DNA of 28,686 bases from a virus. The notes beneath the pieces were generated by a model, which did no database searches, was not told the DNA's origin, and was given only the letters and a program-made list of their open reading frames with translations. The position numbers and the translations under genes were made by a program. Location: the IMG/VR virus record IMGVR_UViG_3300044699_000126, positions 1 through 28,686 of that record; one strand, 5' to 3'. Below, piece after piece: positions 6,560-25,474 of the stretch. Position 1 is the first letter of the stretch. Every line of letters starts with the position of its first letter.

Positions 6560-6565
6560 TTAAAT
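6560..6565 (+). promoter_or_regulatory. Possible -10 element of HNH gene A
   Basis: TTAAAT followed by GGG lies about 60 bases upstream of the ATG. It resembles the element found at a similar place before the other plus-strand HNH units. No good -35 is visible at 16-18 bases. Confidence 0.3.
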
Positions 6566-6625
6566 GGGTGAGCGGGAGATGCTGCAAACATCCCCGCCCG
6601 ACATCCAGGAAAGTAGGTTTCCAGA

Positions 6626-7098
6626 ATGCCTCTCAAGTCTAAGACGATTGAAGAACTGCTGTCTAAATTTGTGCCAAATCGACACCCGGATCGATGCTGG
6701 ATCTGGAGTGGGTCTACCTGTAAGGGTTATGGCAAATGTACTTGGCGAACGAAGACCTTACAGAGCACACCGACTGGTGTACGAGCACCTCGTCAGCGCT
6801 ATCCCTGAAAGCTTGGAACTCCATCACACTTGCAGAACGCCGCTGTGCGTTAATCCCGCTCACCTGGAAGCGGTTACGCACCTGGAAAATATCCGCCATG
6901 GCTCCCGACGTGAGAAAACGCACTGCCCTAAGAATCACGCATACGATGAGGCCAACACCTACCTCGACAAAAAGGGGACGTCGCTCCTGCCGGGAATGCA
7001 AACGCCAGTGGAATCGAATCAATTACCATCGGAAGTCCTCGCAGCGGCTAGCTGCTCGACAAGAGGAGCCAACCAGCCCGCATCTGCTACGCGAATAG
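6626..7098 (+). CDS. HNH homing endonuclease A (frameshifted)
   Basis: This plus-strand gene faces the minus-strand structural genes. It starts at ATG 6626 after GGAAAG. The frame changes near 6740 and again near 6980. The reconstructed order is MPLKSKTIEELLSKFVPN, then CWIWSGSTCKGYGKC, then AHRLVYEHL, ELHHTCRTPLCVNPAHL and HLENIRHGSRREKTHC, ending with a Cys pair RSCRECKRQWNRINY. This is the HNH_3 arrangement: a His, then H-x-C-x-x-x-x-C-x-x-P-x-H-L, followed by an extra C-x-NH...C-x-x-C knuckle that probably binds zinc. Such free-standing enzymes nick or cut DNA and spread between phage genes. It lies between the GNAT gene and a small conserved gene on the other strand, converging with the latter. 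Confidence 0.8.
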
Positions 7099-7370
7099 GG
7101 GTAGCCGAGTTCGATCGCCGCCGCCAGAGCTTTCGCCTCATCGCTCTCAAGTTCCACGCTCTTGGTTGCATAGCCATTGAGTTGCGGCTTCCAGTTGTAG
7201 CTCTGCCCATTGCTGGTGAACTCGATCTCCCGCTGCTCCTGCTCGGTGAGCCTGAGCTTCTCGATGATCCGCAGAAAGACACTAGCCTCCCGGAGGTTGG
7301 CTGCGTTGTGGTTGCCGCACATATTCCACAACCACACTCTCTGGAAAAGCGGCAGTGTCACTGTTTGCAT
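7023..7370 (-). CDS. Conserved small phage protein of unknown function
   Basis: The gene starts at ATG 7370 with AGGA upstream. The first ~95 residues are well formed: MCGNHNAANLREASVFLRI, then KLRLTEQEQREIEF and VELESDEAKALAAAIELG. The pattern 'N-H-x-A-N-L-R-E-A-S-V-x-L-R-I-I-E-K' is one I associate with small proteins in podovirus structural operons, but I know no function. The last ~20 residues (CGLVGSSCRAASRC...) look out of frame; a single indel would end the protein at TAG 7087 instead of 7023, converging with the stop of HNH gene A. It lies ten bases downstream of its upstream neighbour. Confidence 0.6.
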   Translation of the reverse strand: MQTVTLPLFQRVWLWNMCGNHNAANLREASVFLRIIEKLRLTEQEQREIEFTSNGQSYNWKPQLNGYATKSVELESDEAKALAAAIELGYPYSRSRCGLVGSSCRAASRCEDFRW

Positions 7371-7380
7371 TCTTAGAATC

Positions 7381-7667
7381 CTAAAGGAGCTTGTTCACAA
7401 CGGCCTCGACGGCTCCTGTAAGGAAGCATCCGAGACTGCCGCTCCATCCTGTTGGACCGCCGGATCCATTACTGTGGGCGGCTGGATCTGGTTCGCCACC
7501 ATGTCCGGTTGCTGCATCGCGTTCTGCGCCCATTTCACTCTGGTGTTGTGGGCGGGGACGCTCGAAGCCTCAATGAGAATCGAGTCGGAATACTTGAGGA
7601 CAGCGATCTTCACGCGGCTCCGAAATTCTGGATCTGCGGTGAGAGCGGCACTTTCTAGATATGTCAT
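7381..7667 (-). CDS. Small structural-operon protein, about 95 aa
   Basis: ATG 7667 follows the tail fibre stop by one base (TAATATG). The protein begins MTYLESAALTADPEFRSR and continues VLKYSDSILIEASSVPAH, RVKWAQNAMQQPDMVANQI. As sequenced it ends at 7395. An indel near 7420 restores the more typical ending AVEAVVNKLL and stop 7381. The layout (N-terminal 'ADPEFRxRV', central 'RxxWAQ', C-terminal 'xxVEAVVN') resembles small proteins of phage structural modules that I cannot name. It is all helical with no enzymatic motif. Head or tail completion would be a guess. Confidence 0.55.
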
Positions 7668-12591: not shown

Positions 12592-13811
12592 TTAGATGAC
12601 CACCATATTGCCGATGTAGGCGCAGGTTTCCTCGGCGAGCACCTCGAGTCCGCACTCGGTGAGCCAGCCGTCGATGATCGAGTCGGTGCCCTTGTCCTGT
12701 TGATCCTCCATCAGCTTGGTATCGCGGAGGAAGCGGTACTTCAGCACCGTGGGATCGAGGATGAAGGCGGAGTTCGTATATTGCGCGTGGACGTTCATGA
12801 GCGGGTGCGTCTTGAACCCGATCTGCCCCTGCGGCAGGGTCCAAACGTTGAGGTTCATGCCGAACATCTTGACCACACCGTCCTGGTTGATGACCGAATC
12901 GGTCTTGGCCAGTTTGTTCAGCGAGTTCAGGAAGCCGTTGCCGCAGAACGCGATTCTCTGATCGCCGGCGCGGGTATCCCAGTTCCAGATCGGATACGTC
13001 GCATCCATGAAGGTGCTCGTCGTGATGCCGGTCGACGACTGGAAGATGGTGACGTTCGAAGTGATGAACGATCTCAGACCCGCCCGTAGTGCGCGGTCAG
13101 GTTGCCGGTGGCTTGCGGCGAGGGATCGACAACTTCCGATGCCGAGCCCGTAAAGGAACTGCATCTCGATGTCGCGGCCGTGAGCGAAAGTAGCCCTCTC
13201 CCGGTCGTTCTTATAGGCATCGCCGGTGCGGGCAAAGGTCTTATCCGCGGTGCCCGTAACGGCCCAATTCGTGCGGAAGATCTGGCAGTAGTTGGTGTAC
13301 TTGGTCGGGTTGTTCGACACCGCTGCTGGGCGGGTCGAACCTTCTCCAAAGGCCGTGCCGAGCGCGGTCAGGAAGGTGAAGCCGGTGGTGAGGGCCACAG
13401 GAGTCGGTACCGAACTGGCCGCGCTTGAGCACAACCGTCGTGTCGGAGGTGACCTGACGAGACGAGGGCGATCTCGACGTTGGCCGCCACGTAGGAAACT
13501 GGCTCGGTGGTACCGATCGAGTCGACCTTGATCAGTTGGTTGGGCCGGAGCGCGAGGGCGCCGCCGGTCACGGTGAGCGTTTGTGAGGTGGTGATAAAGG
13601 CAGCGGTCAGCGTCAGGCGGATGACGGTGTTGCGCTCGTTCCACCACGAGAATTGCGGATCAGTTACAGAGGAGCTGCCGAGCTTCTCGGTGAGGGCAAA
13701 CAGCGGCGACTTGCCGTTGGGGTTGAGGAAGAGGATCGTCTCCCGGAAAGACTTAGGGCGTTCGTCGGTGCCCCAGTCATCAGTGGCGCGAACGCCTGCG
13801 AAAAATGCCAT
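12592..13811 (-). CDS. Major capsid protein, SU10 / DUF5309-like
   Basis: ATG 13811 lies 7 bases after a strong AGGAGAA site. The start MAFFAGVRATDDWGTDERPK, then SFRETILFLNPNGKSPLFAL, matches the SU10-type major capsid family (HK97 fold, formerly DUF5309). The body reads DPQFSWWNERNTVIRL, TLTVTGGALALRPNQLIKVD, VVLKRGQFGTDS, TKYTNYCQIFRTNWAVTG, RATFAHGRDIEMQFLYGLG, TNSAFILDPTVLKYRFLRD, and ends TCAYIGNMVVI. At least four indels break it (near 13459, 13405, 13130 and 13085); corrected length is about 406 aa. It would form the head shell. Position after the scaffold-like gene is classical. Confidence 0.85.
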
Positions 13812-17550: not shown

Positions 17551-17556
17551 CATAAT
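17551..17556 (+). promoter_or_regulatory. Possible -10 element of HNH gene B
   Basis: CATAAT is followed by GAATCGAGCCG. The same ATCGAGCCG downstream text occurs after the TAGAAT before HNH gene C, then GTGTTG in both. No clear -35. Confidence 0.4.
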
Positions 17557-17626
17557 GAATCGAGCCGAGAGGCGTGTTGCAGCGCCCCCCGACTCTGACC
17601 GATCCGACCTTTTCCGAGGAGGCCGA

Positions 17627-18226
17627 ATGGCTACAAGAGATGGTAAATCGCTTCCACCCGTTCCTGTAAGGACCGTCGAAAAATACTGGCTGCTCATCAA
17701 GCGAAGCACAGAAACAGAGTGCTGGATTTGGACGGGTCACTTGACCCCAGCCGGATACGGAAACATCAGTATCGGGCCAAGAGGCAACGCTCGAAACGTG
17801 TTGGTCCACCGGCTGTCTTACTTCCTCCACACCGGGGAAGATCCGGGTAGCCGGTTCGTGCTGCATCGCTGCGACACTCCCGCTTGCGTGCGTCCTGACC
17901 ACCTTTTTTTGGGTAGTCAAGCGGACAATGTCCACGATTGCATGGCTAAGGGACGCTTCCCGTCGGGGGATAGCCACTACTTCCGGAAGCGCCCGGAGCT
18001 TGTGCCGCGCGGCGACAATCACTACAACCACACGAAGCCTGAGCTTATACGGCACGGGGAGCAACTCTGGAATGCCTCGTTTAAAGACGCTCAGGTCGTC
18101 GAGATTCGAGCGATGTATGCCACCGGCTTGTGGTCCCACAACAAACTCGCCGCCAAGTTTGGCGTTTCCAAATGCGTCATCGGACAGATACTCCGCCGAA
18201 GAACCTATAAGCACATCGTGCCCTGA
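17627..18226 (+). CDS. HNH homing endonuclease B with C-terminal HTH
   Basis: Start chosen at ATG 17627 because GAGGAGG lies five bases upstream; an in-frame ATG at 17555 overlaps the -10-like element and is less likely. The 199-aa product has TECWIWTGHLTPAGYG near residue 30, the HNH_3 core VHRLSYFLH (His 61) and VLHRCDTPACVRPDHLFLG (His 80, Cys 82, Cys 87, His 92), then QADNVHDCMAKGR. The C-terminus is a helix-turn-helix (LAAKFGVSKCVIGQILRR) giving site specificity. It is intact, and sits between large terminase (ends six bases away on the other strand) and the membrane-protein cluster. It is paralogous to HNH gene D. Confidence 0.9.
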   Translation: MATRDGKSLPPVPVRTVEKYWLLIKRSTETECWIWTGHLTPAGYGNISIGPRGNARNVLVHRLSYFLHTGEDPGSRFVLHRCDTPACVRPDHLFLGSQADNVHDCMAKGRFPSGDSHYFRKRPELVPRGDNHYNHTKPELIRHGEQLWNASFKDAQVVEIRAMYATGLWSHNKLAAKFGVSKCVIGQILRRRTYKHIVP

Positions 18227-18231
18227 TCGGT

Positions 18232-19737
18232 TCATGGACAAAGCCTCCAGCCTGCCTCGATTTCTGCGGGGCTGCCAACGTTCATATCGTTGAAGTCCAT
18301 CATGCCGTCACCTAGCTCCAGAACGAGCGAGACGGCCATGGCGGTCGCGTCTAAAATGTCATCGTGTGCCGAAGCCGGATAGGTTTCCCACTGTTCGAGC
18401 CAGTCGCGCATCCCCCGATGCACATACAATTTGCCGTTCGACGCTAGACCAGCGAGGGATTGCCGGATGCGAACCGGCTTCGCCCGTTGGTCTTTAAACA
18501 CCTCCACAACGTGGAACTTTCCACGGCGTTTCATCTCCTGATCCAGATGCCATTTCAGCGTGGCTTGGTAGGCAATTCCCTCGCAGCGTACCCGCAGCGG
18601 ACGCCATTTCCCGGCGAGTTCGAAGAACGTGTTCGCGGACCAGTCGGGATGATGCGATCTGGAAGTGACGACTTGGAGAACATAGACGTCGCGCGAGGCG
18701 GTCATACCGACGCAGACGTGTGCCTCATAGTCTTTGGACGATAGGCTGCTGGCAACCTGCGCAGCAGTCGGCGGGGGAACCGGATCAATTCCTATCGCGG
18801 TGACCATGTTCAACGGGGGCGTCTCGTAGTAGCGAAGATCCGAACTGCGGAAGTAGGTCCCCTCGTCGGGAACCATCCAGCACATTTTTTCGCGCGCGAA
18901 GTAGCTCCAGGTTTGTTCACGCCTCGCCGCGTCTTCTTCCCTCTTCACCTCGACCGTGGGGAAGCGCTCCTCCCAACGGCTCTTCCCCGCATCATCGTAA
19001 ATCCCGAACTTGCGGAAGCAGTAATCCGGATTCTGTTCAGCGCGAGCAATCAAGTCTTGCGGCCGCATCGGCGTCTGCAGGAGCACCATTTTCGAGTTCG
19101 GTGCTTCCGAGCGCGGAGCCATGGTGTTAAAAATTGAAGCGTAAACTAACTCATTCAGCTTCGCTCTCTGGGTCTCATTGCCGCAATTTTCTTCGGTCTG
19201 CACGTCGTCGAGGCAGACTAAGTCGGGGCGGAACGAGTTGATATTGAGTCCACGTACCGAGGAGGTGATACCGAGACAGACCAGCGAAATGGTCGTTTCC
19301 GGCTTCTGCGGAGAGAGGCGGCAGAGCACGTCGAGGCGGTCACTGTTCCAGATGTTGCCGGGGCGCAAGCCGAATACCTGTGCGAAGGAGAGACCGTCCT
19401 CCGAGTTGCCCTCGATCAGCCGGCGCAGCCAGTCACCGGACTCGTGCGCTTTGTCCGAAGACGCCCCGAGGTAGGCGATGGTACGCGAGGCGCGGTAGGC
19501 TACACTCCACGCCACGTAGGCGCGCAGCAGGGTGGTCTTGGCGCCGCCGCGGAAAACGGCGATGGCCGAGAGCGAGACGTCGGGATTGGTCCAGTCCTTC
19601 CAAATCTCGCGGTGGAATTCGGGGCTACTTTGCCTAAACGCGGAGGGGAAGAAGGTGCGGCAGAACAGCTCCCCGTCGGTGGCGCACAGCGATACTAATT
19701 CGTTGAGGTCGACGGACGGGGAGCGTGCCTGCTTCAT
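18232..19737 (-). CDS. terL: Large terminase subunit
   Basis: An intact 501-aa frame, the longest clean gene here. It packages DNA into the procapsid with an N-terminal ATPase and a C-terminal nuclease. Motifs: a Walker A of the phage type VFRGGAKTTLL (about residues 61-71), Walker B DLVCLDD (172-178), coupling motif MVLLQTPM (218-225), and nuclease acidic residues in AIGIDP (Asp 319) and AHDDILDATA (Asp 459, 460 and 463). EGIAYQATLKWHL is also typical of this region. Length is in the usual range. It starts four bases after the small helical protein's stop. Conservation without any frameshift makes it the best marker for phylogeny. Confidence 0.95.
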   Translation of the reverse strand: MKQARSPSVDLNELVSLCATDGELFCRTFFPSAFRQSSPEFHREIWKDWTNPDVSLSAIAVFRGGAKTTLLRAYVAWSVAYRASRTIAYLGASSDKAHESGDWLRRLIEGNSEDGLSFAQVFGLRPGNIWNSDRLDVLCRLSPQKPETTISLVCLGITSSVRGLNINSFRPDLVCLDDVQTEENCGNETQRAKLNELVYASIFNTMAPRSEAPNSKMVLLQTPMRPQDLIARAEQNPDYCFRKFGIYDDAGKSRWEERFPTVEVKREEDAARREQTWSYFAREKMCWMVPDEGTYFRSSDLRYYETPPLNMVTAIGIDPVPPPTAAQVASSLSSKDYEAHVCVGMTASRDVYVLQVVTSRSHHPDWSANTFFELAGKWRPLRVRCEGIAYQATLKWHLDQEMKRRGKFHVVEVFKDQRAKPVRIRQSLAGLASNGKLYVHRGMRDWLEQWETYPASAHDDILDATAMAVSLVLELGDGMMDFNDMNVGSPAEIEAGWRLCP

Positions 19738-21902: not shown

Positions 21903-22203
21903 ATGGCTAAGAAGAATTATAGAACGCCTCACCTTCCCCACGAAAAGCATGGGGAAAAAATAGATCGGTGCTGGTTGTGGAAGGGTAAGCCCAACAACTC
22001 CGGTTATGGAGTTTTCAAGATGCAAGGCGAGAACTATCTGGCCCACCGCATCGCCTACAAACTCGGCATACGGCGTCGATCCCGGCAACAACTACGTCCG
22101 CCACATCTGCAAAGTGAAACTCTGCTGTAATCCGGCCCACTTGTTCCTCGAACCGCGAGACAAGAAGCAAGGGGATGCCGCCTCCCAGGATGAAGTTGTC
22201 TGA
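21903..22203 (+). CDS. Small HNH endonuclease C (frameshifted)
   Basis: ATG 21903 has AAAGGAGA seven bases upstream. It reads MAKKNYRTPHLPHEKHGEKI, then RCWLWKGKPNNSGYG, LAHRIAYKL; an indel near 22065 changes frame to YGVDPGNNYVRHICKVKLCC and NPAHLFLEPRD. This is an HNH_3 core (His, then H-x-C-x-x-x-x-C-C-N-P-x-H-L) in about 100 aa, without the C-terminal HTH of genes B and D. Its stop overlaps the ribosome binding site of HNH gene D, so the two are co-transcribed. Confidence 0.8.
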
Positions 22204-22213
22204 GGAGGCCAAC

Positions 22214-22757
22214 GTGATTACCAACGATTGTTGGACGCTATCTGTCGTGACCGCGAGGAACATCCAAAATTATTGGGTGAAAGTGGATGTAAAGGGACCG
22301 GACGAGTGCTGGCTGTGGACAGCAAACACGGTCAGGGGCTATGGACAGTTCGGGGTTGGACCGGGCCTGAAACGCCGTCACGTAGGGGCACACCGCGTGG
22401 CGTATTTTCTGGGCCACGGAGTTGATCCCGGCGCTCTGTGCGTCTGTCACACCTGTGATCAGCCGCTTTGTCAGAACCCGGCCCATTTGTGGCTCGGAAC
22501 CAACTTAGATAACATGCAGGACTGCGTGGCCAAGGGCGCCGCCCCACCGGGGATGCCAACTACCAGCGGAAACATCCGGAGCTTGTGAAGCGCGGGGAAC
22601 AGTGTTCCCACTCCAAGCTGAAAGAAGCCGATGTAATCGAGATCAGGAGACTTCGTGCCAGCGGCTTGGTGTATCGCGAGATCGCCGCCAAATTCGGAGT
22701 CCACCTAGGCCACATCTTCGACATTGTCAAGGGAATAGCCTGGAAGCACGTCCCTAA
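22214..22757 (+). CDS. HNH endonuclease D with C-terminal HTH (frameshifted)
   Basis: Start chosen at GTG 22214 because GAGGAGG lies six bases upstream; an in-frame ATG exists at 22175. The HNH core is HRVAYFLGH, CVCHTCDQPLCQNPAHLWLG, then NLDNMQDCVAKG. An indel near 22550 restores GDANYQRKHPELVKRGEQCS and the HTH part VIEIRRLRASGLVYREIAAK, FGVHLGHIFDIVKGIAWKHV. The frame as sequenced runs on to 22830, but a one-base correction gives KHVP and a TAA at 22755-22757, matching the end (KHIVP) of its paralogue gene B. It converges with the minus-strand gene that ends at 22754. Confidence 0.8.
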
Positions 22758-23677: not shown

Positions 23678-23841
23678 TTAGGTGAGTTCCTCTACTTCCG
23701 CGGGGTCAGGATCGGGGATATCGGCTTCGCCTTCCTCGGGCGGATACGGTTCGTGGGGTCGAAGAGCTTTTCAAACTCAGGGTCCGGATCAGGCTCGGTG
23801 TCGGCATCTTGATGTTGAGTATATAGCCGCTTGGCGCGCAA
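23678..23841 (-). CDS. Small acidic protein, uncertain start
   Basis: The 3' end is well supported: after an indel near 23745 the frame reads EEGEADIPDPDPAEVEELT and stops at 23678, one base before the next ATG. Upstream is DTEPDPDPEFEKLFDPTN. No ATG is in frame; a TTG at 23841 is possible but overlaps the terminator T-run and has no ribosome binding site. About 50 residues, strongly acidic, no recognised family. Confidence 0.35.
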
Positions 23842-23844
23842 GGC

Positions 23845-23890
23845 AAAAAAAACAGGGCCAGGAGGATCTGCCGATCAGTCCTGGCCCTTA
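23845..23890 (-). terminator. Intrinsic terminator after the PEP-CTERM gene
   Basis: Perfect 10-bp inverted repeat AGGGCCAGGA / TCCTGGCCCT (23854-23863 and 23879-23888), with an inner GATC/GATC pairing. On the minus strand it is followed after two bases by eight T residues (A-run 23845-23852 on plus). It lies 35 bases past the PEP-CTERM stop. Confidence 0.85.
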
Positions 23891-23924
23891 CCAATTACCG
23901 GGTCGTGTTACGGAGGGAGTCTGA

Positions 23925-24612
23925 TTAGGACCGGCGCTTGGTGAAGTAGAGTCCGATCAAACCGGCAGCCATCATTCCATACGTAGCGGGTTCAGGAACT
24001 GCAGGCTCGCAGTCCACGCCTTCGACGCAGAGCGGGTTGACGCCCACTCCGACGTAGAACTGATCGATCAGGGAGATCGTCGCGTAGCCGAGACCTTCCG
24101 AGTCCGAGCCGACGAGGAAAATATCTTTCACTATCTTGAGGTTATGGTAAGCGCCATCGAGGATGATGGCATCGGCGAGCGGACCGCCGGGAGCGTCGAC
24201 CTGACCCTGTCCGGCGAGGTGAGCAATCGGAGCAATGATGGACTCGATCACTTCGGCGAACGACTGATCGCCAACCACGGCGCCGTTGAAGAGGAGCCGA
24301 CCCCGCCGATGGCCAAGGTGGAATTGAGGTGGTAGGCGACGAGGAAATCGGCACTGGCGAAGCCCCCGTTCGAGAGCGCGGTGAAGCCGCCGGCAAAGCG
24401 GATCTGGTTATTGACGAGCGTGACGTCGATGCCGGATGCATCGAGCGGAGCGCACACGCCGATGCCGCCGCAGGTGCGGGTGAATTCAAGTTATCGATGG
24501 TGAGGTTGCCGTTGGTGAGCGAGCCGCCCGCAGCAACAGGGTGCTGAGGAGGGTGGCGTTGAGGGTCATGCTCGACAGGGCGAGCAGGGGACGCGAGGAC
24601 TATGGACTTCAT
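23925..24612 (-). CDS. Secreted protein with PEP-CTERM sorting signal
   Basis: The start is ATG 24612 with GGAAAGG upstream. The N-terminus MKSIVLASP, then (after an early indel near 24585) LLALSSMTLNATLLSTLLL, is a signal peptide. The body is beta-rich: NGNLTIDNL, CGGIGVCAPLDASGIDVTLV, RFAGGFTALSNGGFASADFL, YHLNSTLAIGGVGSSSTAPW, and after an indel near 24270 AEVIESIIAPIAHLAGQGQV and GYATISLIDQFYVGVGVNPL. The C-terminus is VPEPATYGMMAAGLIGLYF followed by TKRRS: a PEP motif, one membrane span and a basic tail, the classical PEP-CTERM signal processed by exosortase. About 229 aa. It has its own terminator and leader hairpin, so it looks like a separately regulated cargo gene. The passenger domain is not recognised. 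Confidence 0.85.
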
Positions 24613-24622
24613 GAAGGTTACC

Positions 24623-24656
24623 TTTCCAAAGTGCTCTTTCGAACGAGCATTGGAAA
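24623..24656 (-). promoter_or_regulatory. Hairpin covering the RBS of the PEP-CTERM gene
   Basis: TTTCCAA-AG-TGCTC (24623-24636) pairs with GAGCA-TTGGAAA (24645-24656): 12 bp with a two-base bulge and an 8-base loop. In the minus-strand transcript the 3' arm ends in GGAAA of the GGAAAGG ribosome binding site, 10 bases before ATG 24612. Folding would hide it. Confidence 0.5.
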
Positions 24657-24860: not shown

Positions 24861-25449
24861 CTACACGTCGTAGGTTTTTTCCCAAGCGAGGCCGGTGGCC
24901 CGCGGCGGGATCACGAACTCAACCTTCGTATAGCGGTCGCCGGTTTCATCCTTAAATTCCTCGCCCACCCTGTACTGATGGCCGCCGTAATCGGCGTAGA
25001 GGGTGCGGCCGGGCCAGGGCTGATTCTGAAGCGGCGGCCCGATCGGCGAGGTTTCCCCTTTCGGGTGACGGGCGTCGTAGCCGGGATATTGCGCCACGGT
25101 GTCCTCCTGCGTGCCGGCCACGCATTGCAGGGAATAGAGGAGCGCTGACGGATAGATCTCCACGTTCCGGACGTCGCACTCGTACTTCTCGCCGTTGGGC
25201 AGGACCGCAGTGAACTGGGTCTGGTTTGAGGAACGAAGTCTCGGGCGAGGAGTTGCGCGTGGCATACCACTTCTCGATGGTGTGGGGCTGCTCTTCACAG
25301 AGCCAGGCGAGCTTATCGTGGAACTCGAACCGAATCCCAGCGCAGCGCGGGGAGATCGGCATAGGCGTCGTTATAGAGGTTGTCCGGATTGACGACTCCG
25401 GGCGGAACCGGGGGAATCTGGACCGCGGGGCGGCTTTTGGTTTGGCCAT
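24861..25449 (-). CDS. Conserved-looking protein of unknown function
   Basis: ATG 25449 follows GGAGAAATGAGAAAAAC. Frame changes near 25420, 25330 and 25240 give MAKPKAAP, VQIPPVPPGVVNPDNLYNDA, YADLPALRWDS, FEFHDKLAWLCEEQPHTIEK, then FTAVLPNGEKYECDVRNVEI, YPSALLYSLQCVAGTQ, PWPGRTLYADYGGHQYRVGE and ends TGLAWEKTYDV; about 195 aa. The second half is beta-rich with a 'LPNGEKYECDVRNVEIYPS' strand pair. No catalytic motif or membrane segment. Its stop lies just before the 58-aa gene, so the two are probably co-transcribed. Confidence 0.55.
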
Positions 25450-25474
25450 GTTTTTCTCATTTCTCCTGGACGGA

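Follow-up and report, generated by a model that had tools for sequence, protein, structure and literature searches.

A PEP-CTERM-tagged protein encoded by soil phages, probably in a moron-like cassette exchanged among lineages

The window, which is the whole 28,686-bp IMG/VR virus record analyzed here, carries among its phage genes a gene whose product ends in a PEP-CTERM tail, and the question arises what use a phage could make of this sorting tag. In bacteria, PEP-CTERM proteins and exosortases stabilize the link between exopolysaccharide and the cell surface (PMC12188702, PMC9850573), and work on this system has treated it as a property of bacteria connected with exopolysaccharide, flocs, and biofilms. 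Based on the window and its relatives, we consider it fairly likely that the gene is a moron-like cassette for a Sec-exported, PEP-CTERM-tagged protein, and that soil phages with common fibre tips, and so probably common hosts, exchange it by recombination. The gene and its parts are as follows.

23925 to 24612, minus strand: PEP-CTERM gene, ATG at 24612 and stop at 23925, frame broken here by four single-base indels
24556 to 24612, minus strand: predicted signal peptide region, MKS followed by a hydrophobic core, from the sequence and from a helix in the model of a relative
24030 to 24555, minus strand: beta-rich passenger, the most conserved segment
23928 to 24002, minus strand: PEP-CTERM tail VPEPATYGMMAAGLIGLYFTKRRS with VPEP motif, single membrane span, and basic end (PF07589, TIGR02595)

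The sequence-only reading had described a signal peptide, a beta-rich passenger, and a complete PEP-CTERM tail, and all three were located at these positions on the minus strand. It had also proposed a search with the PEP-CTERM model. In this search the tail scored 27.8 bits against PF07589 (gathering threshold 20.7, E 2.4e-6) and 25.6 bits against TIGR02595 of NCBIfam (cut-off 16), so that a C-terminal region with PEP motif, span, and basic end stands above both curated cut-offs. At the other end, a hydrophobic start in all intact homologues and a helix at residues 3-12 of the structural model indicate an N-terminal signal peptide. The protein matches no family in PHROGs, and no copy of the gene was found among the INPHARED phages. 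Membership of the flocculation protein family PepA (NF033554) was rejected at 26.7 bits against a cut-off of 80; the tail matches the end of that model only, and the passenger gives no match.

In the window, the coding frame is discontinuous, with the signal peptide, pieces of the passenger, and the tail set apart from one another by the four indels. The portal, tail, and further genes of the same contig are split by the same type of indel relative to their relatives. Since essential phage genes are broken likewise, the broken frame is probably a consensus error and not decay. Many split genes are spread over positions 1 to 28,686, pointing to a low-quality consensus for this record.

The surroundings of the gene contain the following signals.

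23845 to 23887, minus strand: intrinsic terminator, GC stem of 9 bp (GGGCCAGGA/TCCTGGCCC) and then a T run (TGTTTTTTTT)
24623 to 24656, minus strand: leader hairpin directly before and overlapping the ribosome-binding site, containing CGTTCGAAAG
23818 to 23846, minus strand: promoter-like site TTGCCT-17-TATACT past the terminator, 9 of 12 consensus bases

A strong terminator and a leader hairpin had been claimed from the letters of the window, and both proved real. The terminator, with its 9-bp stem and T run at 23887-23845, was passed over by the terminator scan because its loop is longer than 8 nt. The leader hairpin of the window has a folding energy of -20.0 kcal/mol (z -3.45), and zero shuffles were equally stable. 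When the other copies were compared, a terminator-like hairpin was present 3' of the gene in 10 of the 10 copies examined, with a weak T run in G020, so that the gene has the terminator of its own that marks a phage moron. Stable leader folding was likewise found in most copies, the leaders of G023, G024, and G020 being not beyond chance. These results support the claim of a moron-like, self-contained unit. The 10-base motif CGTTCGAAAG occurs exactly once each in the window, G005, G016, and G023, and because it lies just 5' of the gene each time, the leader and the gene appear to move together; the motif alone is no proof, as G010 holds one copy without the PEP-CTERM gene. The promoter-like site past the terminator probably serves the next operon. 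Upstream of the window gene no site passed the consensus promoter scan, and extended -10-like elements were recognized by eye in several copies as weak matches. The three stretches searched against Rfam gave no match.

Three further genes of the window place it among its relatives.

24861 to 25450, minus strand: upstream gene in fragments, related to the DNA upstream of the PEP-CTERM gene in G016
18232 to 19737, minus strand: terminase large subunit, intact, matching phrog_38, which sets the phage lineage of the window
12592 to 13811, minus strand: major head protein, matching phrog_1328, in two frames

As the sequence-only reading had advised, other phage contigs were searched for homologues, and these were found in 15 further IMG/VR contigs at 65-99% identity over the best segment. 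The full-length homologues are all open reading frames of about 230 aa. The gene is flanked by phage genes in all 15 records, which bears out the claim that it is phage-borne, and at least three packaging lineages carry it amid phage genes. In lineage A, to which the window belongs (terL phrog_38, major head protein phrog_1328, and a portal-like protein), the gene immediately precedes the packaging operon. The lineage A members G005 and G016 have ends with 127 identical bases, as circularly closed assemblies would show; these two and G020, which has such ends as well, each contain the gene. Lineage B comprises phages of about 65 kb with a T7-like DNA polymerase (phrog_17) and a terL weakly like phrog_5989, and here the gene is the last of the late operon and faces the DNA polymerase gene. 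The third lineage is represented by the 73.8-kb record G024 (terL phrog_2/979). The short contigs G021 and G023 also carry the gene, which adjoins a metallo-beta-lactamase-fold gene in G023 and G024.

The comparison of these lineages revealed that they share few proteins, and the PEP-CTERM protein is the best-conserved long one (79-85% identity among the best pairs listed). The distal tail fibre is also common to them (66-71% identity, A versus B or A versus G024), as are two small genes next to it and some minor ones. The common fibre tips suggest common hosts, so lineages with the same tips probably infect the same bacteria. Not all members of lineage A carry the gene: the window, G005, G006, G009, and G016 have it, whereas G007, G010, and G014 do not. 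The gene is thus present or absent at one site among close relatives, as a moron is; in G007 and G014 nothing but a spacer and a terminator occupies the slot. The finding that was to speak against a phage gene, namely bacterial flanks in a host genome and absence from related phages, was not made in its first part, as no bacterial copy was found. Its second part holds for G007, G010, and G014 and fails for the several relatives that carry the gene, and the empty slots of G007 and G014 contain no bacterial DNA. The window copy itself is a mosaic with a junction near 24450; it matches G016 at about 97% identity in the 5' part and G009 at about 100% in the 3' part, terminator included, while long matches elsewhere are at about 70-91%. 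The mosaic could have arisen by recombination or be an assembly artefact joining two phages. The gene tree is too weak for counting transfers.

Pairwise dN/dS values were 0.05-0.24, with large dS, indicating that the gene is under purifying selection. By mean pairwise identity, the signal peptide reaches 50%, the tail 62%, and the passenger 83%, and on this comparison the passenger is the part kept by selection. A genome-wide scan with the gene gave no cellular match. Profile searches with the passenger in 795 bacterial genomes (396 Acidobacteriota and 399 Burkholderiales) gave chance hits only, and a comparison with 113 distinct cellular PEP-CTERM candidates, mostly acidobacterial, revealed no relative. 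The same search method recovered bacterial relatives of a second phage family described below (E 1e-22 and 2e-24), so it can work for such proteins, although very distant relatives may be missed. A scan for the tail VPEPATY[AG]LMG matched Betaproteobacteria, mostly Burkholderiales, and two Acidobacteriota. As for the host, the terminase found relatives at 25-28% identity only, and the small gene that the phages share next to their tail fibre gave no hit. A Solibacter-type PEP-CTERM family, which presumably has a similar pattern, was not recovered by these tests and serves as a lead only.

A sequence search of the PDB gave nothing credible. The AlphaFold2 model of an intact relative (pLDDT 56) contains a signal helix, eight strands, and, at residues 209-228, one C-terminal helix. 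Both fold models have low confidence, with pLDDT 56 and 54. The best structural match of the passenger in the pLDDT 56 model was Bd1399, a secreted beta-sandwich protein of Bdellovibrio (PMC10792529), with Z 9.2, which is a weak lead. Carbohydrate-binding modules followed with Z up to 7.9, likewise a weak lead from a low-confidence model.

When IMG/VR was scanned for the tail motif, a second family of about 273 aa was found in 11 contigs (L217-L227; L120:6190-7011), whose members are 44-100% identical. Several of its carriers are T7-like podoviruses of about 40 kb, and the gene commonly lies between the replication block and an oppositely oriented late block. It has the same plan as the window gene, namely signal, passenger, and PEP-CTERM tail, and a terminator-like hairpin accompanies most copies. 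However, only the tails of the two families align; the passengers are unrelated, and the second family has bacterial relatives while none was detected for the passenger of the first. Since two unrelated families occur in phages, phage-borne PEP-CTERM genes are recurrent.

How would such a protein act? The cassette consists of one gene with its own leader and its own terminator, and it would be transcribed in the infected cell from its own promoter. The protein would then be exported by Sec. Neither the 24 phage records nor the window yielded an exosortase, which must therefore come from the host. The host exosortase would cleave the protein, and the product would be displayed at the surface or released there or into the matrix. 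Surface display during infection is strongly suggested, and superinfection exclusion or matrix remodelling would be a plausible role. As the likeliest purpose we tentatively suggest that the altered surface or polysaccharide matrix hinders the adsorption of competing phages that have the same tail tips; exclusion is proposed because of the shared fibre tips only. In a broader form, which is equally tentative, phages may have acquired exosortase-dependent surface proteins more than once and independently, comprising at least two unrelated passenger families, one of them with no detected cellular relative, and would use the sorting enzyme of the host to alter its surface or matrix, mainly for competition among phages with the same receptor-binding tips.

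The main rival to adsorption blocking is that the surface protein alters aggregation or biofilm by binding or shedding exopolysaccharide, and so aids the release and spread of the phage. Over-expression of PepA moves soluble polysaccharide to the bound fraction and restores flocs (PMC9850573), and the passenger model weakly resembles carbohydrate-binding modules (Z up to 7.9), in agreement with such a role, but the model is of low confidence and the beta-sandwich is a common fold; we regard this explanation as somewhat unlikely. Quite unlikely, in our judgement, is a decoy, in which an abundant phage substrate occupies the host exosortase and strips the host PEP-CTERM proteins from the surface. 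The self-contained expression unit with leader and terminator would suit it, yet a signal and a tail would suffice for a decoy, and it is the passenger that is most conserved.

Recent capture of a host gene, with no phage role or retained for the fitness of a lysogenic host, is brought to mind by the bacterial nature of PEP-CTERM proteins and by the bacterial relatives of the second phage family. It is very unlikely for the window gene, against which stand the dN/dS values with their large dS, the failure of the genome-wide scan, the 795 genomes, and the 113 PEP-CTERM candidates to yield a cellular relative of the passenger, and the lack of an integrase among the genes scanned, which were part of the total. 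That the locus is an assembly chimera or misbinned bacterial DNA would fit a window copy that is frame-broken and a mosaic of two relatives, but phage genes flank the same gene in the 15 other records, three of which have identical ends. We give this explanation hardly any weight, and those 15 records lead us to reject a bacterial chimera for the gene itself.

Compared with known PEP-CTERM proteins (PF07589/TIGR02595), the protein is alike in its signal peptide, PEP motif, single span, and basic end, but it is encoded by a phage, no exosortase is found in the same genome, and its passenger has no detected relative. Among phage morons and superinfection-exclusion surface proteins, lom and bor of lambda and Llp of T5 use outer-membrane or lipoprotein routes. 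The window gene resembles them as a single self-contained gene that varies among relatives and whose product would go to the host envelope, and differs in its putative exosortase route and in that exclusion is only putative here. Full-text searches of the literature turned up no report of a phage-encoded PEP-CTERM protein in the titles, abstract openings, and passages covered; the sorting tag and the moron are known kinds, and their combination appears to be new. Several soil-phage lineages that carry and trade PEP-CTERM proteins make the sorting route a phage target. This gives a testable handle on the manipulation of the matrix by phages, and it supplies a sequence marker by which exosortase-running hosts can be recognized.

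Several minor observations were made in the same records. The two small proteins adjoining the tail fibre in otherwise unrelated lineages are 64-83% and 55-64% identical (L050:8264-8898 in G024, L039:11503-11790 in G017, and about 7022-7667 in the window), and they match no PHROG family. In the 65-kb phages of lineage B, the 13-bp perfect palindrome GTTAGTnACTAAC occurs 27-43 times per genome, with about 0.002 expected (L037-L040 in G017, L041-L044 in G020, and L045-L048 in G015), and it was absent from the other phages examined. Most gene junctions have a copy in or close to them, often 2-100 nt 5' of a start codon, and copies flank the PEP-CTERM gene on either side. The palindrome looks like a stoperator or another genome-wide regulatory site. 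Directly 5' of the PEP-CTERM gene of G020, two large genes of 625 and 1107 aa (L042:10571-15784) have signal-peptide-like starts and no Pfam or PHROG match. Finally, three HNH_3 endonuclease genes of the window (6564-7376, 17555-18226, and 22175-22588, plus strand) lie between structural genes on the strand opposite to them, and similar ones are intergenic in the relatives.
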